A stretch of DNA of 64,000 nt from Nonomuraea helvata. GTDB lineage: Bacteria > Actinomycetota > Actinomycetes > Streptosporangiales > Streptosporangiaceae. Made by a program: the position numbers and the translations under genes. Location of the stretch: assembly GCF_039535785.1 (NCBI RefSeq), contig NZ_BAAAXV010000012.1, positions 1 through 64,000 of the forward strand. Reading direction: 5' to 3'. Of the stretch, positions 13,285-57,327 are shown piece by piece. Position 1 is the stretch's first letter, and the number at the start of each line of letters is the position of its first letter. The notes below the pieces were generated by a model. The model saw only the letters and a list, made by a program, of their open reading frames with translations, did not search any database and was not told the origin of the DNA.

Positions 13285-13319
13285 CGGGATTGTCGTACCC
13301 GTGGCGTAGCGTTCGGCGG

Positions 13320-14264: not shown

Positions 14265-14268
14265 TGTC

Positions 14269-14619
14269 TCAGCCTTCCATGACGCAGAAGGGGTGACCTT
14301 CGGGATCGATGAGCACGGTCCAGTCGGCGCCGCCCGGCTGGACGTCGGGCACGGTGGCGCCGAGCCCGGCAAGCTCCTTCTTGGCGGCCTCGACGTCGGG
14401 GACCTTGAACTCGAGGTGCACGTGCTTCCCGCCGTTCGGCCAGCCGGGCCCCTGATAGCCGTCGACCCGCTGGAACGAGATCGACACCGGGCCGCCTTCG
14501 AGCCCGACGAAGTCGTCATCGCCCGAGCCGACCTGCAGCCCGGTGGCCTTGGCGTAGAAGGCCGCCAGCGCGGCGGGGTCGGCGCAGTCGATGACGATGG
14601 AGGTAAGAGTCGCTGTCAT
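14269..14619 (-). CDS. VOC-family (glyoxalase/bleomycin-resistance-like) protein
   Basis: 116 residues starting MTATLTSIVIDCADPAALAA. It has the two beta-alpha-beta-beta-beta modules of a VOC protein: FYAKATGLQVGSGDDDFVGL, then GGKHVHLEFKVPDVEAAKKE, and the final LIDPEGHPFCVMEG. His in KHVHLEF and Glu in the second module are at usual metal-ligand places. These small actinobacterial VOC proteins usually lack an assigned substrate. A dead relative is at 5494-5625. Confidence 0.82.
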   Translation of the reverse strand: MTATLTSIVIDCADPAALAAFYAKATGLQVGSGDDDFVGLEGGPVSISFQRVDGYQGPGWPNGGKHVHLEFKVPDVEAAKKELAGLGATVPDVQPGGADWTVLIDPEGHPFCVMEG

Positions 14620-14706
14620 GCACCCAGCCTGGCGGCGACGGGACGGCCCGGTCTTGAACATCCTTGCACCGCCACCGGGGATGCCTGAGCGCCGAGGGCT
14701 GCGGCC

Positions 14707-15651
14707 TCACGCCCGGAACGTGCGCCGGTAGGCGTCCGGCGGCACGCCGACCGTGCGGTGGAAATGGCGGCGCAGTGTCGTCGCCGTGCCCATGCCCGCG
14801 GCCGAGGCGATGGCGTCGACGCTGTCGTCCGTGGTCTCCAGCAGCTCCTGCGCGCGGCGGATCCGCTGCGTCAGCAGCCACTGCAGCGGGGTGGTGCCGG
14901 TTGCCGAGCGGAAGTGGCGGGCCAGGTGGCGCGAGCTCATGTTCGCCTGGCGGGCCAGGTCCTCCACGGTGAGCGGCTGGTCCAGCCGCCGCATCACCCA
15001 GGTGAGCAGCTCGGCCAGGGGATGGTCGTCCTGGGCCGGCACCGGTGTGGAGACGAACTGGGCCTGGCCGCCCGCCCGGTGGGGCGGCACGACCAGGCGG
15101 CGGGCGACCACGTTGGCGATCGCCGAGCCGTGGTCGCGGCGGACCAGGTGCAGGCACAGGTCCATCGCCGCGGCCTTGCCCGCGGACGTGAGCACGCTGC
15201 CGTTGTCCACGTAGAGCACGTCCGGGTCGACCTCCACCCGGGGATAGCGCGCGGCCAGCGCCTCGGTGTGGGCCCAGTGCGTGGTCGCGCGCAGCCCGTC
15301 CAGCAGGCCGGCGGCGGCGAGCACGAACACGCCCGTGCACAGGGAGACCACCCGCGCGCCCGACTCGTGGGCCGCGCGTACCGCCTGGACCAGATCGGCC
15401 GGCGGGTCCTCGTCGACGTCCGCCAGGGCGGGGACGATCACGGTGCCGGCGTGCGCCAGCCAGTCGAGCCCGCAGTCCGGTTCCAGCAGGAACCGGCCGA
15501 CCCGGACGGCGTGCGTGCCGCACACCCGGACGTCGTACCAGGGGCTCGGCACGGCGTCCGGGGCGGAGCCGAAGACCTCGTAGGCCAGGGCCAGCTCGAA
15601 GTGGAGCATTCCGTCGGTGGCGGCGACCGCGAGGGAGCGCGGGACAGACAT
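14707..15651 (-). CDS. GlxA-type regulator (DJ-1/PfpI plus AraC HTH)
   Basis: 314 residues from MSVPRSLAVAATDGMLHFEL. Residues ~5-175 form a DJ-1/PfpI-like domain, with the nucleophile-elbow-like SLCTGVFVLAAAGLLDGLRA. Residues ~210-310 form an AraC DNA-binding domain (EDLARQANMSSRHLARHFRS; TPLQWLLTQRIRRAQELLE). Full length. Divergent from the saccharopine dehydrogenase-like gene at 15726, so that gene is the likely target. Confidence 0.9.
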   Translation of the reverse strand: MSVPRSLAVAATDGMLHFELALAYEVFGSAPDAVPSPWYDVRVCGTHAVRVGRFLLEPDCGLDWLAHAGTVIVPALADVDEDPPADLVQAVRAAHESGARVVSLCTGVFVLAAAGLLDGLRATTHWAHTEALAARYPRVEVDPDVLYVDNGSVLTSAGKAAAMDLCLHLVRRDHGSAIANVVARRLVVPPHRAGGQAQFVSTPVPAQDDHPLAELLTWVMRRLDQPLTVEDLARQANMSSRHLARHFRSATGTTPLQWLLTQRIRRAQELLETTDDSVDAIASAAGMGTATTLRRHFHRTVGVPPDAYRRTFRA

Positions 15652-15725
15652 CATGTCGGAAATTGTACGGGTCATGTCGTTCCAGACACTGGGCATCGAT
15701 GCGCCAACCGGCCAGGATTTCCGCA

Positions 15726-16811
15726 GTGAATCACTTCGAGCACGTGGGAGCGGGCATGGGAGCGGGCATGGGATCGGGTCGGGACGTGGCGGTGTACGGC
15801 GCTTACGGGCACACCGGGCGGTTCGTGGTGGCGGAGTTGCGCGAGCGCGGATACGTCCCGTTGCTCGTCGGTCGTGACCGGGGCAAGCTGCTGGCGCTGG
15901 TGGAGGCGTACCCCGGGCTTGAGGGGCGGCAGGCGTCGGTCGACGACCCGGCCTCGCTGGACCGCGCGCTGAACGGCGCGGCCGCTGTGATCAACTGTGC
16001 CGGCCCTTTCGCCTCGACCGCCGCCCCGCTGGTCGAGGCGGCGCTGCGCGCCGGCATCCCGTACGTGGACGTGGCAGCCGAGATCGAGGCGAACGTCGAC
16101 ACGTTCGCGCACTTCGCGGAGCGCGCCCGCGCCGCGGGCACCGTGGTGGTCCCGGCGATGGCCTTCTACGGCGGCCTCGGCGACCTGCTGGTCACCACCG
16201 CGATGGGCGACTGGACCGCGGCGGACGAGGCGCACATCGCCTATGGCCTGAGCAGTTGGCACCCCACCGGCGGAACGCGCGCTTCGGGCGTCGTCTCGGG
16301 GCAGCGGCGGAACGGCCGCCGGGTCCGCTTCACCGGCGGGCGGCTGGAGTACCACGATGACGCTCTGCCGACCCTGGAGTGGCCCTTCCCGGCACCGCTC
16401 GGCCCCCAGAGCGTCATCGGTGAGTTCACCATGGCCGACGTCGTCACCGTTCCCAGCCACCTGGCCGTCGCGGAGGTGCGTACGTACATGACGGCCAGGG
16501 CGGCCGCGGACCTGTCCGCTCCTGACACCTCGGCGCCGGCCGCCGTCGACGAGCGCGGCCGCTCCGCGCAGACCTTCGTCGTCGACGTCCTCGTCCGCTC
16601 CGGCGGCTCGGAGCGCCGCGTGAGCGCCGCCGGTCAGGACATCTATGCCATCAGCGCGCCGCTCGCGGTGGAGGCCGTGGACCGCATCCTCACCGGCCGG
16701 ACCAGGACCACCGGCGTCGCCTCCGCGGGCGCGATCTTCGACGCCCCGGACTTCCTCCGCGCCCTGTCCCCGCACCTGTCGCTGCACGTCCCGCTCGACA
16801 CACGCGGCTGA
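15726..16811 (+). CDS. Saccharopine dehydrogenase-like NAD(P)-binding protein
   Basis: 361 residues with a GTG start at 15726; ATG at 15756 is an alternative. VAVYGAYGHTGRFVVAELRE is a Rossmann GxxGxxG-like motif. LVGRDRGKLLALVEAY and INCAGPFASTAAPLVEAALR follow, as in short saccharopine-dehydrogenase-like and trans-acting enoyl reductase proteins of actinobacteria. The 30 bp after the GTG encode a repetitive MGAGMGSG stretch. Probably a cytoplasmic oxidoreductase; substrate unknown. Likely controlled by the divergent GlxA-type gene. Confidence 0.78.
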   Translation: MNHFEHVGAGMGAGMGSGRDVAVYGAYGHTGRFVVAELRERGYVPLLVGRDRGKLLALVEAYPGLEGRQASVDDPASLDRALNGAAAVINCAGPFASTAAPLVEAALRAGIPYVDVAAEIEANVDTFAHFAERARAAGTVVVPAMAFYGGLGDLLVTTAMGDWTAADEAHIAYGLSSWHPTGGTRASGVVSGQRRNGRRVRFTGGRLEYHDDALPTLEWPFPAPLGPQSVIGEFTMADVVTVPSHLAVAEVRTYMTARAAADLSAPDTSAPAAVDERGRSAQTFVVDVLVRSGGSERRVSAAGQDIYAISAPLAVEAVDRILTGRTRTTGVASAGAIFDAPDFLRALSPHLSLHVPLDTRG

Positions 16812-17003
16812 CGCGGGGCCTCGCATGCGGGGCCGCTCCCGAGGGCTGTGTGTCCGCCGGCCTCCCGGAGCCGCCCCGCTCGTGTGGTCCAGGCCCCACC
16901 GGGCACGAACGGGCGGGGACCGCTGAGGCATAGCGGGTACCGGCCTGTCGAGGCAGGCCGAAGGTCTCTGGGAGGGGGCCGGTCAGGCGGGAAGGCTGAG
17001 GGT

Positions 17004-19283
17004 GTGAAGCGTCTCTGGCCGATGGTCTTCCTGGGGTTCACGGTGGCCGCCCTGTCCGTTGGGGGCGTCCTGAGCCTGGTCGGGCTGCCCGGTTGGGGCG
17101 ATGTGGTGCTCGCGGCGGGGACGATCGTGGCCGTCGGGCCGGCCGCCTGGTGGGTGGTCTCGGCGTTGCGCGCGGGCCGTCTGGGGGTGGACGCGATCGC
17201 GGTGCTCGCCCTGGTGGGGACGCTGGCCGTACAGGAGTATCTGGCGGGTGCGCTGATCGCGGTGATGCTGGCCGGCGGGCGGGCGCTGGAGGAGTACGCG
17301 ATGCGCCGGGCGCGGCGTGATCTGACCGCGCTGTACGAGCGGGCACCGCGCCGGGCGCACCGGTATGAACGCGATGGCCCGCGTCGAGTGGACGTCTGCG
17401 AAGTGTCGCGAGGAGACCTGCTGCTGGTCCCGGCCGGTGACATGGTGCCGGTCGACGGCGTGGTCGTCAGGTGCGCAGCGCTGCTGGACGAGTCCGCCCT
17501 CACAGGTGAGGCGCTGCCGGTGGAGTATCCGGTGGGGGAGAGCGTGCGCAGCGGCGTCGTGAACGCGGGCCCGGCCTTCGACCTGCGGGCCACCAGCACG
17601 GCCGAGGAGAGCACCTACGCCGGCGTGGTCAGGCTGGCCCGGGAGACCGAGGCGGACAGCGCTCCGGTGGTGCGTCTGGCCGACCGGTTCGCCGCCTGGT
17701 TCCTGCCCGCGACGCTGGCGCTGGCCGGGTTGGCGTGGGCGCTGTCGGGCGAGGCGGTACGGGCGGTCGCGGTGCTGGTGGTGGCGACCCCGTGCCCGCT
17801 GCTGCTGGCCGCGCCCGCCGCGATCGCCTCCGGGCTGTCGCGTACGGCACGCCGAGGTGTAGTCGTCAAGGGCGGAGGCGCGCTGGAGACGCTGGGCCGC
17901 GCCCGCACGCTCGTCCTGGACAAGACGGGGACGCTCACCCAGGGACGCCCCGAGGTCGTCGACATCGTCGCCGCGGACGGTTTCTGCGTACGTGAGGTGC
18001 TGGGCCTGGCCGCCGCGGTCGATCGGATGTCCTCCCATGTCCTGGCCGCCGCCATCGCCCGGGCCGCGGACGAGCGCGGTGGGGAGCCGTTCACTGCCGA
18101 ACGGGTGCACGAGGAGGCCGGATCAGGCACGACGGGAACCGTCGACGGGCGGCTGGTGCACGTGGGAAAGGCACCGAAAGGGCTGAACTCGGCCTGGATG
18201 GCCGCACAGCGGGCCAGGGCGGCGCTCGACAGCGCGATGACCGTCTGGGTGAGCGTGGACGGAGACGTCGCCGGAGTGATCCTCCTTCGCGACGCGGTGC
18301 GCGCGGACGCTCCTCGTACGTTGCGCAGGCTCCGCTCCGCGGGCATCGAACGCGTGGTGATGCTCACCGGCGACCGGGCCGAGGTCGCCGAGAGCGTGGC
18401 CACCGTGCTCGGCGTCGATCACGTGCTCGCTGAGCGGACACCCGGGCAGAAGGTGGCGGCAGTGCGCGAGGAGGCCGCACGCGCACCGACCGTGATGGTC
18501 GGCGACGGCATCAACGACGCACCGGCCCTGGCCGCCGCCCAGGTCGGGGTGGCCATGGGCGCGCACGGGTCGGCGGCCTCCACTCAGGCGGCCGACGTGG
18601 TGCTGACCACCGACCGGCTCGACCGGCTGGCCGATGCCATGGACGTGGCCCGCCGTGCCCGGCGCATCGCGGTGCAGAGCGCGGGGGTCGGCATGGGACT
18701 GTCGCTGGTCGCGATGTTCGTGGCGGCTCTGGGCGGCCTTCCGCCGGCCGCCGGCGCGCTTCTGCAGGAGGGCATCGATGTCGCGGTGATCCTCAACGCG
18801 CTGCGCGCCCTGCGCCCGGCGAGAGGAACCCGCCTGCACGTGGACGCCCCCACCGATGCCCTGCTGCACCGCTTCGATCGCGAGCATGCCGCGCTGCGTC
18901 CCGCGCTGGACCTGCTCCGCGAGGCCGCCGACGCACTCGATCGGCCCGCGTCGACCACGCTGCCCCTGCTGCGGCACGTCCACGACGTGCTGACCGGTGA
19001 GATCCTGCCGCACGAGCAGGCCGAGGAGCAGCGCCTGTACCCGGCGCTGAGCAGGCTGCTCGGCGACCCCGAGGCGACCGTGACCATGAGCAGGGCACAC
19101 GCCGAGATCACCAGGCTCGCGGCCAGATTGGCTCGGCACGTCGAACTCGCTGGAGGGGACGGGCCCAAGCCGGAACAGATCGACGATCTCCGGGCGTGCC
19201 TGTATGGGCTGCACGCCGTCCTGACCCTGCACTTCGCGCAAGAAGAGGAGGCCTACTTCTCGCTGGCCGGCCGAGCCGAGTGA
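17004..19283 (+). CDS. P1B-type metal ATPase with C-terminal hemerythrin domain
   Basis: 759 residues from the GTG before KRLWPMVFLGFTV. There is no N-terminal metal-binding (HMA) domain. Membrane helices, an actuator domain (ESALTGEALPVE) and a membrane TPCP motif near residue 263 (VATPCPLLLAAP) lead to the phosphorylated Asp306 in DKTGTLT. MLTGDRAEVAES and VGDGINDAPALAAAQVGVAM complete the HAD core. Residues ~620-755 are a hemerythrin-like four-helix domain, with REHAALR, PHEQAEEQRLYP, RAHAEITRL and HFAQEEEAYF giving the H...HxxxE...H...HxxxE ligands. Metal export is the family role; TPCP instead of CPC leaves the ion unclear. The fused diiron-type domain suggests oxygen or iron sensing. 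Confidence 0.88.
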   Translation: MKRLWPMVFLGFTVAALSVGGVLSLVGLPGWGDVVLAAGTIVAVGPAAWWVVSALRAGRLGVDAIAVLALVGTLAVQEYLAGALIAVMLAGGRALEEYAMRRARRDLTALYERAPRRAHRYERDGPRRVDVCEVSRGDLLLVPAGDMVPVDGVVVRCAALLDESALTGEALPVEYPVGESVRSGVVNAGPAFDLRATSTAEESTYAGVVRLARETEADSAPVVRLADRFAAWFLPATLALAGLAWALSGEAVRAVAVLVVATPCPLLLAAPAAIASGLSRTARRGVVVKGGGALETLGRARTLVLDKTGTLTQGRPEVVDIVAADGFCVREVLGLAAAVDRMSSHVLAAAIARAADERGGEPFTAERVHEEAGSGTTGTVDGRLVHVGKAPKGLNSAWMAAQRARAALDSAMTVWVSVDGDVAGVILLRDAVRADAPRTLRRLRSAGIERVVMLTGDRAEVAESVATVLGVDHVLAERTPGQKVAAVREEAARAPTVMVGDGINDAPALAAAQVGVAMGAHGSAASTQAADVVLTTDRLDRLADAMDVARRARRIAVQSAGVGMGLSLVAMFVAALGGLPPAAGALLQEGIDVAVILNALRALRPARGTRLHVDAPTDALLHRFDREHAALRPALDLLREAADALDRPASTTLPLLRHVHDVLTGEILPHEQAEEQRLYPALSRLLGDPEATVTMSRAHAEITRLAARLARHVELAGGDGPKPEQIDDLRACLYGLHAVLTLHFAQEEEAYFSLAGRAE

Positions 19284-19374
19284 AGAATGCGTTGACGGGT
19301 TCATCGCCGAGACCGGGCTGATCGCTACTCCGCCGTGACGCCGCCGTTCCATGGCCCCGGAGTGACGCGGTGCG

Positions 19375-19515
19375 CGCGGGAAGCAGCTGCGCGAGCTGGT
19401 CGTGTCCCGCCTGGCGTGCTGGCACTCCGACCTACGCGAGCTGATCGTCCGGACACCTGCGGACACCATCGAGCAGTTCGCCTTCGCCGCCGCGGCGCGG
19501 GTGAAACGCCCCTGA
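19375..19515 (+). pseudogene. FAD-dependent monooxygenase-like C-terminal or internal remnant
   Basis: 46 codons read RGKQLRELVVSRLACWHSDL then RELIVRTPADTIEQFAFAAA and ARVKRP before TGA. The pattern L-x-x-WHxxLRELIxxTPxDTIxxFxF is typical of a late block in aromatic-ring FAD monooxygenase-like proteins. No start, no FAD-binding part. A small dead fragment between the ATPase and the convergent reductase operon. Confidence 0.4.
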
Positions 19516-47639: not shown

Positions 47640-47651
47640 GTAACATGCCAC
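47640..47651. promoter_or_regulatory. GntR operator, GTAACATGCCAC
   Basis: This 12-mer lies one base before the GntR start codon. It is the exact reverse complement of GTGGCATGTTAC at 49850-49861 in the divergent hglS/dehydrogenase promoter, and close to the palindrome GTAGCATGCTAC at 49873-49884. Sharing one word across the regulator and its neighbours marks an autoregulated operator. Confidence 0.65.
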
Positions 47652-47652
47652 C

Positions 47653-48399
47653 ATGCCGCCCACCCGCGAACACGCCGAGCTGAAGCTGCAGCCGTTGCCG
47701 CAGGCGGGGCGGTCGCTGGCCGAGCAGGTGATCTCGGAGGTGCGCCGGGCGGTGCACACGGGCGCGATGGTCCCCGGCCGCCTCTACTCCGTCTATCAGG
47801 TGGCCGAGCAGCTCAACGTCTCCAGGAGCCCGGTGCGCGAGGCGATGCTGCGGCTCGCGGAGGCGGGGCTGGTGCAGGTCGAGCGCAACCGGGGGTTCCG
47901 CGTCGTGCTGCCGCACCCGCGCGAGATCGTCGAGATCTTCGGGGTACGGCTCGCGCTGGAGCTGCCCGCCGTCCGGCGGGCGGCCGGTGGTGGGGCCGCC
48001 GGGCTCGGCGCGTCCCTGCGGGCCACGATGGAGGAGATGGCGGCCGCGGTGGGCGCGGGCGACGAGTCCCTCTTCTTCCACCTGGACCAGACGCTGCACG
48101 ACCACATCCTGGCCGCGGCGGGCAACGGCAGGGCCCGCGCGATCGTCGGCGGGTTGCGCGACACCATGCGCATCCTCGGCACGTCCACCGACGACCGGTC
48201 CCGCACGCTGCGGCAGGTGCACGAGGAGCACGAGCCCGTGGTGGCGGCCGTCGCGGCGGGCGACGCGGACGGCGCGGTGCGCGCGATGCGGGCCCACCTG
48301 ACCAACACCGGTCTCATCCTGGCCGGGCAGGCGGCCAGGGCCCAGGGGGAGCCGGTCGACGTGGACGCACTGTGGGCGGCCATCGTCGACGAGGCGTGA
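47653..48399 (+). CDS. GntR-family regulator (FCD type) of the 47.6-55.6 kb cluster
   Basis: 248 residues from [20 protein letters not shown]. The winged helix has [20 protein letters not shown] then [21 protein letters not shown] helical FCD sensor domain has [20 protein letters not shown] and [20 protein letters not shown], with the usual His metal ligands. FCD regulators sense organic acids. Operator copies lie directly before its own start and between hglS and the D-2-hydroxyglutarate dehydrogenase gene, so it probably represses lysine/2-oxoadipate catabolism; 2-oxoadipate or 2-hydroxyglutarate is a plausible inducer. Confidence 0.9.
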
Positions 48400-48406
48400 T
48401 CAGAGG

Positions 48407-49816
48407 TCAGGAGGCGCCGGGCAGGGCGATCTCGCCGTCCAGGCCGAGCTCCGCGCGCACGCGTGCCAGCGACGCCGCCCGGACCGAGGCGTACAGCTCG
48501 TAGGGGTCGTGCAGCGGTCTTCCGAGCACCGCGGCCAGGGCGTCGGGCCCGAAGTCGGCGCCGGTCCTGGTCGCGTCCTTGGTGCCGTCGGAGGTCAGGT
48601 TGGACTGGAAGATCCCGGCGGCCGAGCGCGGCAGGAAGTCCTCGTACACGATGGGCCGGGCGCTCACCCAGCCCTCGGAGAGGAGGGTGGTGAGGTCGGC
48701 CGGGGGCACGGCGCCGGGGCGGGCGTCGCGGACGTGGAAGGTGAAGTAGGCGAGGTCGCCCGTGACGAGCTCGGCCTCGCTGCGCGGCACGCGGCCTTCC
48801 CAGAGCTTGGCCGCGAGCTCGTTGCGTTCTTCCGCGGTGACGGAACGGCCGTGGAGCATCGCGTCGAGTTCGGCGGACAGGTCGTCGTAGAGCGCGCGCC
48901 CGGCCGGTGTCACCGCTATGCCCCGCGCCTCCACCTCCCCGAACCGCACTCGCAGGTCGTCCCGTACGACGCTGCCGTCCTCCTCCCGGAACAGCCGCGG
49001 CTCGGCCAGCGCGCGGAAGGAGGTCTGGCGCAGCAGCAGGTCGGGGCCGTCCCAGCGGGGCGGGCCCTGAATCGCGTCGATCATGGTGATGCCGCGCTCG
49101 CTCATGCGGGCGTAGAGGGCGTCGATGTCGAGCACGCGCGGGGTGAGGTGGTTGATGTGCGTGCTCGACACGCCGCCGATGTCGGCGGCCACCGCTGACA
49201 CCCGCTCCAGTTCGGCGTACCAGCCGCGCGAGACGGGCTCCGCGGACAGCTCGAACGCCCGCGTGGCGAGGGTGAGGAACTCCTCGGCCGCCGCGTCGTC
49301 CAGGCCGCCCTCGGCCTCGGCGCGGTCGGCCAGGTCGAGCAGGCGCGGCGGGAACAGCCGGCGGGCCCCGAGGAACTCGCCGAGCCGGCGTTCCAGGTCC
49401 TCGTCGAAGAAGCGCCGGTCGCCCGTCACGAGCATGGACGTGAACACCCGGAAGGGATTGGCGGCCAGCTCGGCCTCGTCCACGGGACGGAACGCCGTGG
49501 AGACGACCGGCACGGAGCTGCCGGCCGCCTCGCGCAGGTCGTAGTAGCCGACGGGGTACATGCCCATCGAGCCGAAGATCCGCGCGACCTGCGCCAGCTC
49601 GGCCGGGGTGCCCACGCGGATCGCGCCGTGCCGCTCCGCGGTGACGCGGCCGATGGAGCCGAGCCGCTCGGCGTCGGCTCCCATCCGCTCCATCACCTCG
49701 CCGTTCACTTCCTGGGCGACGTCGACGAGCGTGTTGTACGCCGGGACCTCCGTGCCGTACATCGTGGACAGGCGCCGGGCGAAGGCCGCCCGGAGCGCGG
49801 TGGAGCCGACCATCAT
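48407..49816 (-). CDS. hglS: HglS-like 2-oxoadipate dioxygenase/decarboxylase (DUF1338, VOC)
   Basis: 469 residues, the normal length for the YdcJ/DUF1338 family. Conserved blocks include VTAERHGAIRVGTPAEL with a metal-type His near residue 63, GVSSTHINHLTPRVLDID with the second His pair, and GPDLLLRQTSFRALAE. Family knowledge: HglS of Pseudomonas converts 2-oxoadipate to D-2-hydroxyglutarate in D-lysine catabolism, using Fe(II) and O2. The divergent gene encodes a YdiJ-like D-2-hydroxyglutarate dehydrogenase, the next step. That context supports the assignment strongly. ATG at 49816 or 49813. Confidence 0.88.
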   Translation of the reverse strand: MMVGSTALRAAFARRLSTMYGTEVPAYNTLVDVAQEVNGEVMERMGADAERLGSIGRVTAERHGAIRVGTPAELAQVARIFGSMGMYPVGYYDLREAAGSSVPVVSTAFRPVDEAELAANPFRVFTSMLVTGDRRFFDEDLERRLGEFLGARRLFPPRLLDLADRAEAEGGLDDAAAEEFLTLATRAFELSAEPVSRGWYAELERVSAVAADIGGVSSTHINHLTPRVLDIDALYARMSERGITMIDAIQGPPRWDGPDLLLRQTSFRALAEPRLFREEDGSVVRDDLRVRFGEVEARGIAVTPAGRALYDDLSAELDAMLHGRSVTAEERNELAAKLWEGRVPRSEAELVTGDLAYFTFHVRDARPGAVPPADLTTLLSEGWVSARPIVYEDFLPRSAAGIFQSNLTSDGTKDATRTGADFGPDALAAVLGRPLHDPYELYASVRAASLARVRAELGLDGEIALPGAS

Positions 49817-49849
49817 GCCTCTTCTCTCCCTTGCCGCTGGTACGGGTGA

Positions 49850-49884
49850 GTGGCATGTTACAGGGGTCGCATGTAGCATGCTAC
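49850..49884. promoter_or_regulatory. Tandem GntR operators in the divergent hglS/dehydrogenase promoter
   Basis: GTGGCATGTTAC (49850-49861) and the perfect palindrome GTAGCATGCTAC (49873-49884) differ at two positions and their centres are 23 bp apart, about two helical turns. The second runs into the start of the D-2-hydroxyglutarate dehydrogenase gene. The first is exactly mirrored before the GntR gene at 47640. Confidence 0.65.
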
Positions 49885-49886
49885 TC

Positions 49887-52745
49887 ATGGATCGGGCCGC
49901 CGCTCTCGCGAACGACCTCCGCCGGCGCGGAGTCACCGACGTGCTCACCGACTCCACCACACGAGCGATCTACTCCTCCGATGCCTCGCTCTACCGGGTG
50001 CCGCCCCTGCTGGTCGCGCGGCCGAGGTCGGCCGAGGATGTGGCCGCCGCGATCGAGCTGTGCGCACAGCACGAGATCCCCCTGACCGCGCGCGGCGCCG
50101 GCACGTCCGTCGCCGGGAACGCCATCGGTCCCGGGCTCGTGCTGGACTTCAGCCGTCATATGAACCGGGTGCTGCACGTCGACGCCGAGACGCGCACGGC
50201 GGTGGTCCAGCCGGGCGTCGTCCAGGCGGCGCTGCAGCGGGCGGCGGCGCCGTACGGGCTCAGGTTCGGCCCCGACCCGTCCACCCACACGCGCTGCACG
50301 ATCGGCGGCATGATCGGGAACAACGCGTGCGGCTCCAGGACGCTCGGCTACGGCCGCACCAGCGACAACATCGCCGGGCTCAAGGCGGTGGCCGGCGACG
50401 GCACGGCCCTGGACCTCCCCGCGCAAGGGGGCCCGGCCGCGCTGCGCGACCTCGTGATGGCCAACCTGGCCACGATCAGGACCGAGTTCGGCGGGTTCGG
50501 GCGGCAGATGTCGGGGTACGCGCTGGAGCACCTGCTGCCGGAGCGCGGCTTCGACGTCGCCGGCCTGCTGACCGGCGGCGAGGGCACGCTCGCCGTGCTG
50601 ACCGAGGCCACGGTGAAGCTGGTGACCGACCCGGCGCACCGGGCCCTCGTGGTGCTCGGCTATCCCGACATCGCCGCCGCCGGGGACGCCGCCCCCGCCC
50701 TGTTGGAGCACCGGCCCACGGCCTGCGAGGGCATCGACGCGCGCATCGTGGACGTGGTGCGCCGGCGGCGGGGACCGCAGGCGGTGCCGCCGCTGCCGCG
50801 CGGGGCGGCCTGGCTGTTCGTCGAGGTGGCGGGGGACGACGCGGCCGAGGTGGGGGAGCGGGCCGCGCGGCTGGCGTCCGGCGGCGAGGACGCGCTCGTC
50901 GTCACCGACCCGGCGCGGGCCACGGCGCTCTGGCGCATCAGGGAGGACGGCGCGGGACTGTCCGGGCGCAGCCCCGCCGGGCTGCCCGCGCACGCGGGGT
51001 GGGAGGACTCCGCGGTGCCGCCTGCGATGCTGGGGCGCTACCTGCGCGACTTCGAGGCGCTGATGGCCGAGCACGGCCTGACCGGCCTGCCGTACGGGCA
51101 CTTCGGCGACGGCTGCCTGCACATCCGGCTCGACGTACCGCTGGACCGTCCAGGCGGGACGCTGGACCGGTCGGGCGGGGCTCTCGACCGGCCAGGCGGG
51201 GCGCTGGACCGGCCAGGCGGGGCGCTGGACCGGCCGGGTGGGCCGAAGGTGTTCCGGGATTTCCTGGTCGCCGCGGCCACGCTGGTCGCCGGCTACGGCG
51301 GCTCGCTGTCGGGCGAGCACGGCGACGGCCGCGCCCGGAGCGAGCTGCTGCCCCTCATGTACTCCGAGGCCGCGATCGACCTCTTCGCGCGGGTCAAGGC
51401 GATCTTCGACCCGGGCGACGTGCTCAACCCCGGCGTGCTCGTCCGCCCCCGTCCCGTGGACGCCGACCTGCGGATCCCGGCCGCCCGTCCGGTGCGCGAC
51501 CGGCTCGCCCTGGCCTACCGCCACGACGGCGGCGACTTCAGTCAGGCGGTGCACCGCTGCACCGGCGTGGGAAAGTGCCGCGCCGACAACACCGCGACCG
51601 GCGGCGTGATGTGCCCCTCCTACCTGGCCACCAGGGAGGAGAAGGACTCCACCCGGGGCCGCGCCCGTGCGCTGCAGGAGATGGTCAACGGCTCCGCCGT
51701 CGCGGGCGGCTGGCGCTCGCACGAGGTCCACGAGGCCCTCGACCTCTGCCTGTCCTGCAAGGGCTGCGCCTCGGACTGCCCGACCGGGATCGACATGGCC
51801 GCGTACAAGTCCGAAGTGCTCCACCAGAGCTACCGCGGGCGGCTCCGCCCGGTCACGCACTACTCCCTGGGCCGCCTGCCGCTCTGGGCGAGGCTGGCGA
51901 GCCGGCTGCCGCGCGCGGCGAACGCCCTGCTGCGGGTGCCGGGGCTGCCGGCGATCGCGGGAGTGGACCGGCGGCGCACGCTGCCCGCGTTCGCGCCGGA
52001 GACCTTCCGGGCGTGGTTCAGGCGGAGGCGCCCGGCGGAAGGCAGGCCGGTGCTGCTGTTCGTCGACACCTTCACCGACCATTTCGCGCCGGAGGCCGGC
52101 CGCGCCACGGTGAAAGTGCTGGAGGCCGCGGGCTACCGGCCGCGGATCAGCGAGCGCCGCCAGTGCTGCGCGCTCACCTGGATCTCCACCGGCCAGCTCG
52201 ACACGGCCAGGAAGATCCTCGGCCGTACGGTCGCCGAGCTGGGCGAGGCCGCGGCGGAGGGCGTGCCCATCGTGGGCATGGAGCCGTCCTGCACGGCGGT
52301 CCTGCGCTCGGACGCGCTGGAACTCCTCGGCGAGGAGACGGCCGCACCGGTGGCGGGGATGACCCGGACGCTCGCCGAGCTGCTGCTGGAGACGCCGGAC
52401 TGGCGGCCGCCCCCGCTGCACGGCCTGGAGGCCGTGGCCCAGCCGCACTGCCATCACCACGCCGTCATGGGCTGGGACCACGACGCCCGGCTGCTGCGCG
52501 AGGCGGGCGCGGACGTGCGGCGGCTGGGCGGCTGCTGCGGCCTCGCGGGCAACTTCGGCGTGGAGAAGGGACATTACGAGGTGTCCGTGGCGGTGGCCGG
52601 GCAGCAGCTCCTGCCCGCGCTCCGGCAGGCAGGGACGGAGACGGCGGTCCTGGCCGACGGCTTCTCCTGCCGTACGCAGATCGCCGATCTGACGTCCCGG
52701 CAGGGCGTCCACCTGGCCCAGCTGCTCGCCGATCGACTGCCATGA
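49887..52745 (+). CDS. D-2-hydroxyglutarate dehydrogenase-like FAD/Fe-S oxidoreductase (YdiJ type)
   Basis: 953 residues (ATG 49887; another in-frame ATG at 49878). The N-terminal FAD domain has TARGAGTSVAGNAIGPGLVL and GPDPSTHTRCTIGGMIGNNA; the C-terminal GlcD-like cap has SGEHGDGRARSELLPL. An Fe-S domain has CLSCKGCASDCPTGID, and two CCG cysteine motifs appear in RQCCALTW and GGCCGLAGNFG. This is the GlcD-GlcF fusion of E. coli YdiJ, which oxidises D-2-hydroxyglutarate to 2-oxoglutarate. Residues 419-453 are five LDRPGGA repeats, absent from the usual family. Operators for GntR precede it. Confidence 0.88.
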   Translation: MDRAAALANDLRRRGVTDVLTDSTTRAIYSSDASLYRVPPLLVARPRSAEDVAAAIELCAQHEIPLTARGAGTSVAGNAIGPGLVLDFSRHMNRVLHVDAETRTAVVQPGVVQAALQRAAAPYGLRFGPDPSTHTRCTIGGMIGNNACGSRTLGYGRTSDNIAGLKAVAGDGTALDLPAQGGPAALRDLVMANLATIRTEFGGFGRQMSGYALEHLLPERGFDVAGLLTGGEGTLAVLTEATVKLVTDPAHRALVVLGYPDIAAAGDAAPALLEHRPTACEGIDARIVDVVRRRRGPQAVPPLPRGAAWLFVEVAGDDAAEVGERAARLASGGEDALVVTDPARATALWRIREDGAGLSGRSPAGLPAHAGWEDSAVPPAMLGRYLRDFEALMAEHGLTGLPYGHFGDGCLHIRLDVPLDRPGGTLDRSGGALDRPGGALDRPGGALDRPGGPKVFRDFLVAAATLVAGYGGSLSGEHGDGRARSELLPLMYSEAAIDLFARVKAIFDPGDVLNPGVLVRPRPVDADLRIPAARPVRDRLALAYRHDGGDFSQAVHRCTGVGKCRADNTATGGVMCPSYLATREEKDSTRGRARALQEMVNGSAVAGGWRSHEVHEALDLCLSCKGCASDCPTGIDMAAYKSEVLHQSYRGRLRPVTHYSLGRLPLWARLASRLPRAANALLRVPGLPAIAGVDRRRTLPAFAPETFRAWFRRRRPAEGRPVLLFVDTFTDHFAPEAGRATVKVLEAAGYRPRISERRQCCALTWISTGQLDTARKILGRTVAELGEAAAEGVPIVGMEPSCTAVLRSDALELLGEETAAPVAGMTRTLAELLLETPDWRPPPLHGLEAVAQPHCHHHAVMGWDHDARLLREAGADVRRLGGCCGLAGNFGVEKGHYEVSVAVAGQQLLPALRQAGTETAVLADGFSCRTQIADLTSRQGVHLAQLLADRLP
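51141..51245 (+). repeat. Five in-frame 21-bp repeats inside the dehydrogenase gene
   Basis: Units start at 51141, 51162, 51183, 51204 and 51225. Consensus CTGGACCGGCCAGGCGGGGC-G encodes LDRPGGA. Units 3 and 4 differ at one base. The insertion keeps the frame and lies between the FAD-cap motif GDGCLHIRLDVP and KVFRDFLVAA. Copy number could vary by slippage. Confidence 0.9.
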
Positions 52746-52868
52746 GGTCTGCTCATGCCCGATCCGCCACGCCCGCGAACTGCCGACAAATGGTGTTGCT
52801 TGGCCGCTTCCTCCGGCTCTGTCCGATCCGCGATGCTGGAGGTGGTCACTGGTGAAAGGAACCGATCA

Positions 52869-54023
52869 ATGGGACGTGAGCTCCCCTCGCATGCCTCGGC
52901 GGTCATCATCGGCGGCGGCGCCATGGGCGTCAGCTCGGCGTACGCGCTGGCCGCCGCCGGGGTCAGCGACGTGGTCCTGATCGACAAGGGGCCGCTGGGC
53001 TCCGGCTCGACCTCCAAGGCGGCCGGCGGCGTGCGCGCGCAGTTCTCCGACCGGGTCAACATCGAGCTCGCCGTACGCAGCCTCGAGACGTTCGAGACCT
53101 TCGCCGAGCGTTTCGGCCAGGAGATCGACCTGCACAAGCCCGGCTACCTGTTCCTGCTCGACTCGCCCGAGTCGGTCGCCGAGTTCGAGAAGAACGTCGC
53201 GGTCCAGAACGACCTCGGCGTGCCCAGCCGGATGATCTCGGTCCGGGAGGCCATGGAGCTGTCCCCGCTGATCGACGCCGATGGGCTGCTGGCCGCCGCC
53301 TACTGCCCCACCGACGGCCACTGCACGCCCGAGTCCGTGGTCCTCGGCTACGCGGGCGCGGCCCGGCGGCTCGGCGCGCGGCTGCTGCCGGGCTGCGCCG
53401 CGACCGGCATCGAGACGGCGGACGGCCGCATCGTCGCCGTCCTGACCGAGGGCGGCCGCATCGAGACCGACACCGTGATCTGCGCGGCCGGCGCCTGGTC
53501 GCAGCCGATCGGCGCGTGGGCGGGCGTCGACCTGCCGGTGACCCCGCTGCGCAGGCAGATCCTGGTCACCGAGCCCGTCCCGGATCTGCCGCCGACCGCG
53601 TTCACCATCGACTTCGGCACCACGTTCTACTTCCACCGCGAGGGCCCGGGGCTGCTGCTCGGCATGTCCGACCCCGACGAGACACCGGGGTTCAAGCTCG
53701 ACCGGTCCGACGCGTGGCTGCCGCGGCTGGGCGAGGCCATGGCCCGCCGCGCCCCGGCGCTGATGGAGACCGGCATCGCCACCGGATGGGCCGGCCTGTA
53801 CGAGGTGACGCCCGACCACAACGCGCTCATCGGGACCGCCCCGGACGTCGACCGGTTCATCTACGCCACCGGCTTCTCCGGCCACGGCTTCCTGATGAGC
53901 CCGGCCGTCGGCGAGGTGGTCCGCGACCTCTACCTGGGCCGGACGCCGTTCGTGGACGTCTCCGGCTTCGACGCCCGCCGCTTCGCCCTGGCCGGTGCCA
54001 GGCCTGAACTCAATATCGTCTGA
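52869..54023 (+). CDS. FAD-dependent amine oxidase (DAO/sarcosine oxidase type)
   Basis: 384 residues from MGRELPSHASAVIIGGGAMG; ribosome site GAAAGGAA. IIGGGAMGVSSAYALA is the FAD-binding Rossmann motif, STSKAAGGVRAQFSDRVNIE follows the DadA/SoxB pattern, and GWAGLYEVTPDHNALIGTAP then FIYATGFSGHGFLMSPAVGE is the C-terminal FAD motif. Family members oxidise secondary or D-amino acids; AmaA-type L-pipecolate oxidases belong here. Beside a semialdehyde dehydrogenase and HglS, oxidation of pipecolate is the best guess. It lies 120 bp after the dehydrogenase. Confidence 0.85.
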   Translation: MGRELPSHASAVIIGGGAMGVSSAYALAAAGVSDVVLIDKGPLGSGSTSKAAGGVRAQFSDRVNIELAVRSLETFETFAERFGQEIDLHKPGYLFLLDSPESVAEFEKNVAVQNDLGVPSRMISVREAMELSPLIDADGLLAAAYCPTDGHCTPESVVLGYAGAARRLGARLLPGCAATGIETADGRIVAVLTEGGRIETDTVICAAGAWSQPIGAWAGVDLPVTPLRRQILVTEPVPDLPPTAFTIDFGTTFYFHREGPGLLLGMSDPDETPGFKLDRSDAWLPRLGEAMARRAPALMETGIATGWAGLYEVTPDHNALIGTAPDVDRFIYATGFSGHGFLMSPAVGEVVRDLYLGRTPFVDVSGFDARRFALAGARPELNIV

Positions 54024-54038
54024 TAAGGGGAGAACTTG

Positions 54039-55565
54039 ATGGTGCACACGCTGCCCGGCGCCGACGAGCTGGCCGCGATGGCGCGGGAGACCGCCAAACG
54101 CTGCGGTGTGGAGGTGCCGGACGGCGCCGTCGCGACCACCTCGCCCATCAACGGCGCGCGCCTGGCCACGGTGGACTGGGTGGACGCCGGCGCCGTCGAC
54201 GACGCGGTCGCGCGCGCCAGGCAGGCGTTCCTGACCTGGCGGGCGGTGCCCGCGCCGGCGCGGGGCGCGCTGGTGAAGCGGCTGGGCGAGCTACTGTCGG
54301 AGCACAAGGCGGACCTCGCCACGCTGATCAGCCTGGAGGTCGGCAAGATCACCTCAGAGGCGCTCGGCGAGGTCCAGGAGATGATCGACATCTGCGACTT
54401 CGCGGTGGGCCTGTCCCGCCAGCTGTACGGGCGCACGATCAGCTCCGAGCGGCCCGGCCATCGGCTCATGGAGACCTGGCATCCGCTGGGCGTCGTCGGC
54501 GTGATCAGCGCGTTCAACTTCCCGGCGGCGGTCTGGTCGTGGAACACGGCGATCGCCCTGGTGTGCGGCGACCCGGTCGTCTGGAAGCCGTCGGAGCTGG
54601 CGCCGCTGACCGCCCTGGCCTGCGCGGCCCTGCTGGAGCGGGCCGCCGCCGAGCAGGGCGCGCCGGCGTACCTGAGCCAGGTCCTCGTCGGCGGCCCCGA
54701 CGTGGGCGAGGCGCTCGTGGACCACCCCGGGGTCGCCCTGGTCAGCGCCACCGGCTCCACCCGCATGGGCCGCGCGGTGGGTCCGCGCGTGGCCGCCAGG
54801 TTCGGGCGGTCGCTGCTGGAGCTCGGCGGCAACAACGCGGCCGTGGTCTGCCCGTCGGCGGACCTGGACCTGGCCGTGCGCGGCATCGTGTTCTCCGCCG
54901 CCGGGACGGCGGGCCAGCGGTGCACCACCATGCGCCGGGTGATCGCGCACACCGACGTCGCGGACACGCTCGTCGAGCGCCTCGCCGACGCCTACGGCAG
55001 GCTGCCGATCGGGAACCCGATGGCGCCGGGCACCCTGGTCGGGCCGCTCATCAACGGGCGGGCGCACGCGGCCGTGCGCGCCGCGCTGGAGGCCGCCGTG
55101 GAGCAGGGCGGCACGGTGGTGGCCGGCGGCGGCCGCCGCTTCGCCGACCAGGCGCCCGACGCCTTCTACGCCGAGCCGGCGCTGGTGCGGATGGGCGAGC
55201 AGACGCCGATCGTGACCGAGGAGACGTTTGGGGCCATCGTGTACGTAATGCCCTACGAAACCCTGGATCACGCCATCGCGCTCAACAACGCGGTGCCGCA
55301 GGGCCTGTCGTCCAGCATCTTCACCCGCGACCAGGCCGAGGCCGAGCTGTTCATGTCGCCGGAGGGCTCCGACTGCGGCATCGTCAACGTCAACATCGGC
55401 ACCTCAGGAGCCGAGATCGGCGGCGCGTTCGGCGGCGAGAAGGAGACCGGCGGCGGCCGCGAGTCGGGCTCGGACGCCTGGCGCGCCTACATGCGCCGGG
55501 CCACGAACACCATCAACTACTCCGGCGAGCTGCCGCTCGCCCAGGGAGTCGAGTTCAGCGTCTGA
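54039..55565 (+). CDS. Aldehyde dehydrogenase, likely 2-aminoadipate semialdehyde type
   Basis: 508 residues from [20 protein letters not shown]; ribosome site [68 protein letters not shown] (Glu) and [20 protein letters not shown] (catalytic Cys) are ALDH landmarks. The [15 protein letters not shown] signature and [20 protein letters not shown] are those of the ALDH7/AmaB group, which oxidises 2-aminoadipate 6-semialdehyde to 2-aminoadipate. Follows the FAD oxidase by 15 bp, giving the expected oxidase-dehydrogenase pair. Confidence 0.9.
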
Positions 55566-55809
55566 CCGCCGCCACGCTCTCGCGCTCGAGGAAGCGCGTC
55601 GGCACCACGGTGCGCCGCCCCTGGGCGGCGCCCGACCCGCCGATCTGGGCGAACAGGCGGTCGGCCGCGGCCCGGCCCATGTCGTACGCCGACTGCACGA
55701 CGACCGAGATCCGCGGGCGCACCAGCGTGGTCCACTCCAGGTCGTCGAACCCGAGCAGCGACACCTGATCGGGGATCGGGATGTCGCGTTCGGACAGGAA
55801 CGAACGTGC
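55555..55809 (-). pseudogene. LacI-family regulator, C-terminal remnant
   Basis: Reads [20 protein letters not shown] then [20 protein letters not shown] and [14 protein letters not shown] to the stop at 55555. This is the end of the LacI sensor domain (VSLxGFDD). The HTH and most of the sensor are missing; at about 55801-55812 it joins tnpB sequence. Its stop overlaps the convergent aldehyde dehydrogenase by 11 bp. Probably a former second regulator near the cluster, cut by the element. Confidence 0.75.
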
Positions 55810-56828
55810 AACGGCATCGTGGCGGCCAGCCTCCCGCAGGCCGAACAGAGCTTGGAGGACGGGAAGAACCGGCCGACCTTGGCGAAGGTGCGGCCGTACA
55901 GTTTCGCCTTGTACTCCAGCATGCGCACGAACGCCGACCAGCCCGCGTCATGCACGCTCTTGGCCAGCCTCGTGCGCGCCAGCCCCTTGATCGCCAGGTC
56001 CTCCACATACACCGCTTGATTCTCACGGATGATCTTGATGGAGGTCTGGTGATGGAACTCACGGCGCGCATCAGCGACCTTCGCATGCTGGCGGGCCACC
56101 TTCACCCGGGCCTTGGCCCGATTCGATGATCCTTTCTCCTTACGCGACAGCGCTTTCTGCAACTTCTTGAGTTTCTTCTCCGCCCGGCGCAGGAACCGCG
56201 GCGAGTCGATCTTCCGGCCGTCGGCCAGAACAGCGAAATGGCCGAGCCCCAGATCGATCCCCGTCTCGGCGAGCGTGGCGGGCAGCGCCTGCTCGCGCAC
56301 GTCGATGACGAAGCTGGCGACATAGCGGCCGGCCGCGTCCTTGATGACGGTGACCGAGGACGGCTGGGCGGGCAGCCGGCGTGACCATCGCACCTTCACG
56401 TCACCGATCTTCGGCAGGCGCAGCTTGCCGCAAGTGGTGACGGCGAAGCGGGCGTTCTTGGTGAACCGGATCGCCTGCCGATGGTCCTTGCGGGACCGGA
56501 ACTGGGGCGGGGCCATCTTCGGCCCTTTGCGCTCGCCTTTGACCGAGGTGAAGAAGTTGCGGAATGAGGTGGTGCAGTCGGCGAGTGCCTGCTGGAGGAC
56601 GACCGCCGACACCTCGCCCAGCCAGGCCCGTCCAGGTGTCTGCTTGGCCTGCGTGATGACTCGGCGGGACAACTCGGCATCGGTGATGAACGGCAGACCC
56701 TGCTCGTGGGTGTGGTTGCGCAGCGCGAGCGCGTCATTGAACACCACCCGCGCACACCCGAACGCCTTGGCCAACGCGATGCGCTGCCCCGGCGTCGGGT
56801 CGATGCGGAAGGAATACCGCAACTGCAC
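55801..56828 (-). pseudogene. tnpB: IS200/IS605-type tnpB, 3'-truncated
   Basis: About 342 codons from [60 protein letters not shown] (first RuvC Asp), [20 protein letters not shown] (RuvC Glu) and [12 protein letters not shown] (first zinc Cys pair) are intact. It ends at MPLHVRSC, before the second Cys pair and the last RuvC Asp, where LacI sequence begins. About 60 C-terminal residues and the right end are lost, so it should be inactive as an RNA-guided nuclease. No tnpA is present. Confidence 0.85.
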
Positions 56829-57327
56829 GAGATCTATCGTAGGTTGGTTTACGGCCGAGCACAGCGAAACAGGACTGGCAGTCCCTGCGTTTCCGTCTTG
56901 CTCGCTCGCTTGGCTTTCATGAAGGCCGGACCGTCTGCACCGACTCCGCAACCGCCCCGGCCGCGTTCGACGGCGAGGTTAATCGCGTCCGCCTGTCGGC
57001 CACCTCCCCATCCACAGCGGCCACGCGTCGTCGGTTTGAGCGCCTTCTCCACGAAAGCGGTTACCTGGGGTTCGATCTGAGGGATGACCACCTGGTCGAG
57101 ATCGGTCCGGAAAGTCTCGGGAATGCTCCGCAAGGGGCGGACGGGCACGCGGACCTGGCTCATTCCGCTCTCCAACGTGAGATCGATCTCATCAGGGTCG
57201 ACGATGCCGCTCGCCCGGCGCGCACGTCAAGGGGTTGCATGTATCTCAAATATCAAGACAATTCTTCTTGAATTGTGAGACGAGCGCTAGGGTGGTAGAC
57301 ATCGGAGCGGAACGAAGGAGTTTGGCG
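56829..57327. other. Gene-poor stretch upstream of tnpB
   Basis: A reverse-strand frame (56849-57175) reads MSQVRVPVRPLRSIPETFRT then DLDQVVIPQIEPQVTAFVEK before dissolving into low-quality sequence. The first ~45 residues have moderate coding character and may be a remnant, but I recognise no family. No tnpA and no LacI N-terminus is visible here. The promoter of the methyltransferase at 57328 must lie at the right end. Confidence 0.4.

Follow-up and report, generated by a model that had tools for sequence, protein, structure and literature searches.

Five genes at 47653-55565 of the window, which is the 64,000-nucleotide stretch that opens contig NZ_BAAAXV010000012.1 of Nonomuraea helvata, probably form a catabolic module under GntR control that handles lysine-derived ring imino acids and leads from pipecolate to 2-oxoglutarate. 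In the proposed route, a DAO-fold flavoprotein would oxidize L-pipecolate to 1-piperideine-6-carboxylate (P6C), in equilibrium with 2-aminoadipate semialdehyde, which Pcd would convert to L-2-aminoadipate. An enzyme encoded outside the cluster would then remove the amino group to give 2-oxoadipate, HglS would turn 2-oxoadipate and O2 into D-2-hydroxyglutarate and CO2, and a FAD/Fe-S dehydrogenase would oxidize D-2-hydroxyglutarate to 2-oxoglutarate, passing electrons probably to the respiratory chain. When inducer is lacking, the GntR regulator of the FCD subfamily would occupy GTRRCATGYYAC palindromes at its own promoter and at the divergent promoter between hglS and the gene for the D-2-hydroxyglutarate-dehydrogenase-like (D2HGDH-like) protein, to be released by an acid of the pathway. 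The assignments of Pcd and HglS are firm, that of the D2HGDH-like protein is fair to good, and that of the DAO-fold oxidase is inferred, as are the substrates of the oxidase and the dehydrogenase, the direction of regulation and the inducer.

A preliminary description of this stretch had placed five genes of a lysine/pipecolate route here, and their presence is confirmed by coordinates and by domain and model scans, with the outer limits unchanged. The order is gntR, hglS, the D2HGDH-like gene, the DAO-fold amine oxidase gene (dao) and pcd; hglS is divergent from the row formed by the last three and convergent with gntR.

Enzymes and operators of the cluster

Pcd and HglS are both recognized by curated equivalog models. 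Pcd scores 795.5 bits on NF050084 (cut-off 730), is the single over-cut-off copy in the genome, and has as its best match in the PDB, over almost its full length, the chain 6rtr, "Semialdehyde dehydrogenase Pcd" (762 bits). HglS passes NF050083 with 715.3 bits (cut-off 600) and lies below the cut-off of a second model, NF049974 (396.7 bits against 550). Its alignments with the solved chains 6w1g (Hydroxyglutarate synthase) and 2rjb span the full length, and in the one with 6w1g the protein keeps the active-site motifs ERHGAIRVG, HINHLTPR and RFGEVE, which contain the presumed metal-binding histidines and glutamate. All three motifs are kept in 68 of the 69 HglS matches among the loci, a set that includes other pieces of the window and some records twice, and the one exception, L003, is itself an incomplete piece of the window. 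The motifs kept in the window's HglS agree with the HHE metal triad and the substrate arginine expected of this enzyme (Arg74 in Pseudomonas putida, PMC7286885), for which Val402 is also named among the substrate contacts. Conversion of 2-oxoadipate to D-2-hydroxyglutarate is the predicted reaction of the window's HglS.

The D2HGDH-like protein fuses FAD_binding_4, FAD-oxidase_C, Fer4_8 and CCG domains in one chain, which is presumably the domain order of YdiJ. In a survey of the genus, 16 of 54 genomes (counting that of the window) were found to encode HglS, and homologs of the D2HGDH-like protein stand at 13 of the 16 further HglS loci examined there. From its domains and context the protein is a fair to good candidate for a dehydrogenase acting on D-2-hydroxyglutarate. 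A survey of the class found HglS in 35 of 393 genomes, and all 35 loci outside the window were examined, making 36 with the window. Pcd is encoded nearby at 30 of these 35 loci (31 of 36 with the window), and two of the five loci without it, L122 and L138, are short contigs. The lower route as first described (P6C to aminoadipate, and 2-oxoadipate by way of D-2-hydroxyglutarate to 2-oxoglutarate) is thus supported by curated models, active-site motifs and the co-location of HglS and Pcd.

The regulator scores above the Pfam cut-offs for both FCD (91 bits) and GntR (52 bits). The pattern GTRRCATGYYAC occurs at three sites in the window (Table 1), where shuffling of the window leads one to expect 0.02 and none of 100 shuffles reaches three; with one mismatch allowed, the window still contains three operator sites against 1.06 expected. 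Across the 11.26 Mb of the genome, which is assembled in 12 contigs, there are four sites, three of them in the cluster, and a reversed control pattern also occurs four times. Because the control is equally frequent, the fourth site, which lies outside the cluster (L095), is at chance level; a wider GntR regulon was for these reasons set aside, and it is the clustering of the three sites that counts.

Comparison with relatives points in the same direction. Of the 16 further HglS loci in the genus, eight encode a GntR ortholog; all eight carry the palindrome at the hglS promoter, while it is absent from the whole stretches of the eight loci that have no GntR ortholog. The hglS promoters of the 35 class loci all lack the palindrome, and L119 has a single stray site. 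All 12 promoters compared (the window and 11 relatives) share GTCGCATGTARCATGCYAC ahead of the D2HGDH start. At the gntR promoters of ten relatives, the half GTARCATGCC is kept in eight (L147 and L149 each show a single altered base), and the full palindrome is present in only four (L017, L146, L148 and L150). The dedicated operators that the preliminary description had attached to the GntR-FCD regulator are therefore predicted from palindromes at its own and its target promoters, and are supported by their conservation at the hglS promoters of GntR-type loci. Within GTAGCATGCTAC there is a -10-like hexamer, TAGCAT, 7 nucleotides before the ATG at 49887, and TANNNT lies within the sites 6-7 nucleotides before an ATG; this suggests that the hexamer may be the -10 element of a leaderless promoter, which a bound repressor would cover.

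A separate cluster at L160:3832-11199, whose members were mostly named by eye, comprises FAD oxidases, a DHDPS-like gene, two proline-racemase-like genes, a gene of the OCD family and a GntR regulator 37% identical to that of the window. It looks like a cluster for hydroxyproline degradation.

Exchange of the head gene and the deamination step

The 36 HglS loci differ in the gene that heads the route. Lysine aminotransferase (LAT) occupies this place in 11 loci, a saccharopine-dehydrogenase-like (SDH-like) gene in 8 and DAO in 8 (seven and the window), while nine have none of these, two of them being short contigs (L116, 8.6 kb; L122, 5.3 kb); no locus has two head genes together. Only the L101 protein was scanned as Sacchrp_dh by Pfam, the other seven SDH-like cases being counted by similarity to it, and as the SDH and DAO2 panel queries were drawn from the same locus set (L101 and L103), other kinds of head would be missed. 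Saccharopine dehydrogenase forms aminoadipate semialdehyde. LAT does likewise (PMC6746716), and therefore a DAO enzyme in the same place should also yield this product.

The window's oxidase scores 246 bits on Pfam DAO, and its best match in the PDB, in sequence as well as in predicted fold, is chain 1y56_B, an L-proline dehydrogenase (226 bits, TM 0.90, 35% identity; the structure model has a pLDDT of 88.9 and was built from a 21-sequence alignment). Its nearest folds act on the secondary amines L-proline and sarcosine. Since the DAO fold suits cyclic and secondary amines, pipecolate, the six-ring homolog of proline, is in its L form the likeliest substrate. Gene exchange and fold, rather than membership of the AmaA family, thus suggest a P6C-forming enzyme that is most likely an L-pipecolate oxidase; the candidacy that the preliminary description gave it stands on these grounds, and not on family membership. 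In a set of 108 class genomes, HglS occurs in 8 and a close DAO (E 1e-90) in 9; the two genomes that have both (the window's and G076) encode them in one cluster.

The closest named relatives of the oxidase are from Nonomuraea species. In the DAO tree, from which L001-L005, L145, L147, L148, L153 and L154 were left out as presumed duplicate records, together with weak or short matches, the DAO proteins of Actinoallomurus (L016 and L017, Thermomonosporaceae) are placed inside the Streptosporangiaceae group, which suggests that the cluster may have been transferred between families.

Further DAO relatives are found in other surroundings; these are compatible with a P6C-forming enzyme but are no proof of one. 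In Actinomadura and Lentzea, at loci found by DAO similarity, the order is ALDH-DAO-ELFV (ELFV denoting the Glu/Leu-dehydrogenase family), and in seven Lentzea loci (L041, L050, L057, L066, L070, L079 and L081) this set is followed by members of the CaiB-type CoA-transferase and acyl-CoA dehydrogenase families. The members scanned (L039 and L057) have succinate-glutarate CoA-transferase and acyl-CoA dehydrogenase as their best models, both below cut-off; perhaps the set is a glutaryl-CoA branch from 2-oxoadipate. In Streptomyces (L043:12206-13405, L083:11095-12156 and others), the DAO relative is followed by AlaDh_PNT_N and Sacchrp_dh proteins near a GTP-cyclohydrolase-II-like gene (named by eye), an arrangement that perhaps serves to convert pipecolate to lysine.

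For the conversion of 2-aminoadipate to 2-oxoadipate, a candidate is provided by the clusters of relatives. In Sphaerisporangium fuscum (L015) and two Actinoallomurus loci (L016 and L017, the latter from Actinoallomurus spadix with ELFV at L017:8840-9988), a LysR gene and an ELFV dehydrogenase gene lie between those for D2HGDH and DAO; in Nocardioides (L029) the order is DAO-pcd-ELFV-hglS; and in Acrocarpospora (L054) one stretch contains OCD, GntR, an amino acid permease, LysR, DAO, hglS, pcd, ELFV and D2HGDH. ELFV also accompanies HglS in L114 and L143, and DAO, ELFV and HglS occur together in L015, L016, L017, L029, L054 and L114. Overall, the ELFV family is present in 32 of 81 clustered stretches (80 DAO loci and the window) and is tagged on 35 of 99 rows of the DAO tree; for the gene orders and clustered stretches of relatives, the gene calls came from a simple GC-frame caller, which missed or clipped some genes. 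The motif GKGG[TM]R, whose lysine we take to be the residue that holds the side-chain carboxylate in glutamate dehydrogenase, is kept in all 32 ELFV proteins. At the Ser position of the aligned glutamate dehydrogenase, 31 of the 32 carry Ala (L072 gives no motif match); the substitution would fit a substrate whose carboxylate side chain exceeds that of glutamate by one carbon. The natural reading of this candidate is an L-2-aminoadipate dehydrogenase. Against that reading, few HglS loci as such include the family: one of the 35 class loci, one of the 16 genus loci and five of the 14 reached via DAO; a search at E 1e-80, run without a positive control, found no ELFV match in the 108 class genomes. 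It could be, as a tentative generalization that we put forward with less than even confidence, that Actinobacteria possess 2-oxoadipate modules whose head can be LAT, an SDH-like enzyme or a pipecolate oxidase of the DAO fold, and in which a dedicated ELFV L-2-aminoadipate dehydrogenase can replace the aminotransferase.

A number of observations weigh against the pipecolate module as proposed for the window. Neither a 2-aminoadipate aminotransferase nor any other gene for the step from 2-aminoadipate to 2-oxoadipate lies within the cluster, and a genome-wide aminotransferase search was not made. The absence of the aminotransferase from the cluster, reported in the preliminary description, is upheld, although the step need not belong to an aminotransferase, given the ELFV dehydrogenase of some relatives. 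The window genome itself has no close ELFV homolog, its best matches being 33-40% identical, and therefore another enzyme must carry out the deamination here. The oxidase scores 41.9 bits on the AmaA pipecolate-oxidase model NF050086 (cut-off 600), less than on the models for N-methyltryptophan oxidase, sarcosine oxidase and glycine oxidase; this rules out filing it as AmaA, although it may still work like AmaA. Similarly, the D2HGDH-like protein reaches 407 of the 1350 bits demanded by its best NCBIfam match, the YdiJ model NF049975, so that it cannot be filed as YdiJ, and the label "YdiJ-like" of the preliminary description holds for its domains and otherwise for a distant likeness; its homologs stand at only 2 of the 35 class-survey HglS loci. 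The window's HglS has Arg at the position of 6w1g Val402, a substrate contact (PMC7286885), with Ser403 kept. All LAT cases belong to one genus and all SDH-like cases to another, the DAO cases spanning four families; because the exchange follows lineages, the 27 head-gene cases are not independent and the independent events are few. Among the 108 class genomes, six of the eight with HglS have no close DAO and seven of the nine with DAO have no HglS, and close DAO relatives elsewhere lie beside a different ALDH and ELFV, beside saccharopine-dehydrogenase-like genes, or beside neither. As to regulation, L016 has the palindrome with no GntR in its stretch, and L054 has a GntR relative (37% identity) with no palindrome. 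Finally, N. jabiensis (L011) keeps gntR, hglS, the D2HGDH gene and dao, with only a 72-residue Pcd match (L011:11181).

Three other readings have to be weighed. One of them, which we regard as unlikely, assigns the missing step to the oxidase itself: as an L-2-aminoadipate oxidase or dehydrogenase giving 2-oxoadipate, it would make the cluster complete from P6C to 2-oxoglutarate, with a separate LAT supplying the input. The deamination gap would then be filled without an outside enzyme, Proteus L-amino-acid deaminases share the DAO fold, and the genome encodes one over-cut-off LAT, on another contig, along with its one over-cut-off Pcd. On the other hand, the ELFV proteins proposed for this same step occur in 32 of the 81 stretches (80 DAO loci and the window) and together with DAO and HglS at six loci; LAT and DAO stand together at no surveyed HglS locus; and the closest folds take secondary amines. 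Saccharopine is likewise a secondary amine, and an oxidase acting on it would release glutamate and the same product, aminoadipate semialdehyde. Such a saccharopine oxidase is brought to mind by the Streptomyces DAO relatives (64-68% identity), which adjoin AlaDh_PNT_N (Lys1-like) and Sacchrp_dh proteins. It is nevertheless improbable for the window, whose cluster has no saccharopine-forming gene; Lys1 and Sacchrp_dh queries matched none at GntR-type loci, and in Streptomyces the Sacchrp_dh protein could already perform the saccharopine step.

It is also conceivable, though very unlikely, that the cluster mainly serves another secondary-amine substrate, such as an Amadori compound or an N-alkyl amino acid, with 2-oxoadipate as a side branch. 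In its favour, an amino acid ABC transporter and FrlD/FrlB-like genes adjoin DAO in close relatives, in an operon of which remnants persist in the window. Pcd and HglS are, however, specific equivalogs of the lysine route, and fructosyl amine and peptide oxidase chains match the DAO protein only at E 5e-7 or weaker. Oxidation of L-pipecolate is the reading that we retain.

Remnants of a larger arrangement

The coordinates of the cluster, its operator-like palindromes and the sequences downstream of pcd are collected in Table 1. To the left of gntR, on the opposite strand, are genes for a peptide deformylase, an HTH-cupin regulator and a PLP decarboxylase, which are not counted as members of the cluster.

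Table 1. Features of the window in and beside the cluster (gene starts are likely starts, read from the sequence)
Feature	Position	Strand	Remarks
Operator-like palindrome GTAACATGCCAC	47640-47651	+	1 bp before gntR start codon
gntR	47653-48399	+	248 aa; FCD subfamily; probable repressor of the cluster
hglS	48407-49816	-	469 aa; predicted 2-oxoadipate dioxygenase/decarboxylase
Operator-like palindrome GTGGCATGTTAC	49850-49861	+	hglS / D2HGDH divergent promoter
Operator-like palindrome GTAGCATGCTAC	49873-49884	+	same divergent promoter, two bases before D2HGDH ATG
D2HGDH-like FAD / 4Fe-4S / CCG protein	49887-52745	+	952 aa
dao, DAO-fold FAD amine oxidase/dehydrogenase	52869-54023	+	384 aa; probable L-pipecolate oxidase forming piperideine-6-carboxylate
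pcd, L-piperidine-6-carboxylate / aminoadipate semialdehyde dehydrogenase	54039-55565	+	508 aa; ALDH7 type
IS200/IS605-type tnpB open frame	55404-56951	-	lies between LacI and FrlB remnants
LacI-type regulator remnant	55570-55803	-	C-terminal 82 aa; tblastn 73% identity to L017 LacI residues 288-369
SIS-domain FrlB-like deglycase remnant	56999-57163	-	N-terminal 57 aa; 71% identity to L008 FrlB residues 1-57

The TnpB-matched part of the tnpB frame comprises residues 43-397 (about 55761-56825) and overlaps the LacI remnant by about 40 bp. In relatives, LacI stands whole beside pcd or dao, within a LacI-OCD-ABC-FrlD-FrlB operon that faces DAO or pcd in L008, L013, L015 (at 12755-19414), L017 and L021, and that is the same up to FrlD in L016. 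About 6 kb of this operon is missing from the window, and neither FrlB nor the OCD of the operon has another close copy in the window genome. Since the LacI and FrlB remnants flank tnpB, the window probably descends from a larger arrangement that included an uptake and entry part. Possibly the relatives' operon takes up Amadori compounds (e.g., fructoselysine) and feeds them into lysine or pipecolate breakdown; this meaning is uncertain because the FrlD- and FrlB-like proteins fall below their cut-offs (196 against 247 and 77 against 430 bits, respectively). Part of the spacer before dao (52746-52868) matches the LysR-dao spacer of L006, which would fit the loss here of a LysR gene that some relatives have. 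A TnpB-like frame (L011:8628-9824, named by eye) separates the D2HGDH and DAO genes of N. jabiensis.

Lysine cyclodeaminases as a source of pipecolate in Streptomyces have been reviewed (PMC9854754). The relatives' OCD was considered as such an enzyme feeding pipecolate into the route and was rejected: it is more likely a reductase, because its best solved relatives are pyrroline-2-carboxylate reductase (127 bits) and alanine dehydrogenase, the solved lysine cyclodeaminases giving 54-55 bits. In the region of cyclodeaminase residue Asp236, the OCD of L017 has MGSYAPDRCEID, whose Tyr may stand in the place of the cyclodeaminase Asp. In the Streptomyces pristinaespiralis cyclodeaminase, Asp236 binds the substrate amine (PMC9854754). 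The window genome's own two OCD copies, which share just 30-32% identity with the OCD of the relatives, were likewise rejected as upstream enzymes. The first is surrounded by proline-racemase-like, DHDPS-like and FAD-oxidase-like genes, a setting typical of hydroxyproline degradation, and the second neighbours LysR- and PhzF-like genes (all named by eye).

Comparison with known systems

Published work covers the reaction of HglS with 2-oxoadipate, the enzyme's mechanism and its distribution among bacteria (PMC7286885), and actinobacterial HglS itself is already known, since NCBIfam has a model named Myco_VOC_HglS. Among titles and abstract openings of the open PMC literature, a weak sample that leaves most subscription papers and all preprints outside, there was no actinobacterial HglS-pipecolate cluster and no ELFV aminoadipate dehydrogenase. 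With the genes described here, the HglS route of Pseudomonas and plants would gain a defined and regulated counterpart in actinobacteria. The cluster also provides a candidate pipecolate oxidase outside the AmaA family and, through its relatives, a candidate enzyme for aminoadipate deamination, and it bears on pipecolate and aminoadipate as lysine-derived precursors of actinobacterial antibiotics.

In mycobacteria, we take the gene neighbouring Lat and Pcd, Rv3292, to be a member of the HglS family. It is not mentioned in the main text of PMC6746716. According to the same source, Pcd turns aminoadipate semialdehyde into aminoadipate, and only the first two reactions are kept, aminoadipate being the end (PMC6746716). 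The window shares the Pcd step with this system and has DAO in the place of LAT, along with a D2HGDH-like protein and GntR. LAT, HglS and Pcd occur together in 11 class-survey loci (L100, L102, L117, L118, L121, L123, L129, L130, L131, L133 and L136), which suggests that lysine breakdown in that genus goes beyond aminoadipate; Lat-Pcd lysine degradation may thus run on to 2-oxoglutarate in HglS-bearing actinobacteria.

The closest solved relative of the window's Pcd, 6rtr, is the Pcd of what we take to be Streptomyces clavuligerus, presumably known from cephamycin biosynthesis, whereas the window's Pcd sits among catabolic genes. The best match of the oxidase, the L-proline dehydrogenase of Pyrococcus horikoshii (1y56 chain B), is presumably part of a multi-subunit enzyme, and no partner subunit gene is seen beside dao in the window.

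The D-lysine/L-pipecolate route of P. putida, with the enzymes AmaA, AmaB and DpkA, presumably also has a FAD enzyme acting on pipecolate and an aldehyde dehydrogenase in its upstream part, and an oxidation of D-2-hydroxyglutarate to 2-oxoglutarate. There, too, 2-oxoadipate is converted to D-2-hydroxyglutarate by HglS (PMC7286885). The window differs in that its HglS belongs to the subfamily of NF050083 rather than NF049974, its oxidase is far from AmaA, its aldehyde dehydrogenase is of the ALDH7/Pcd type, and its FAD/Fe-S dehydrogenase lies well below the YdiJ cut-off, and in that all of these are encoded in a single 8-kb cluster with a GntR-FCD regulator and a palindrome of its own.

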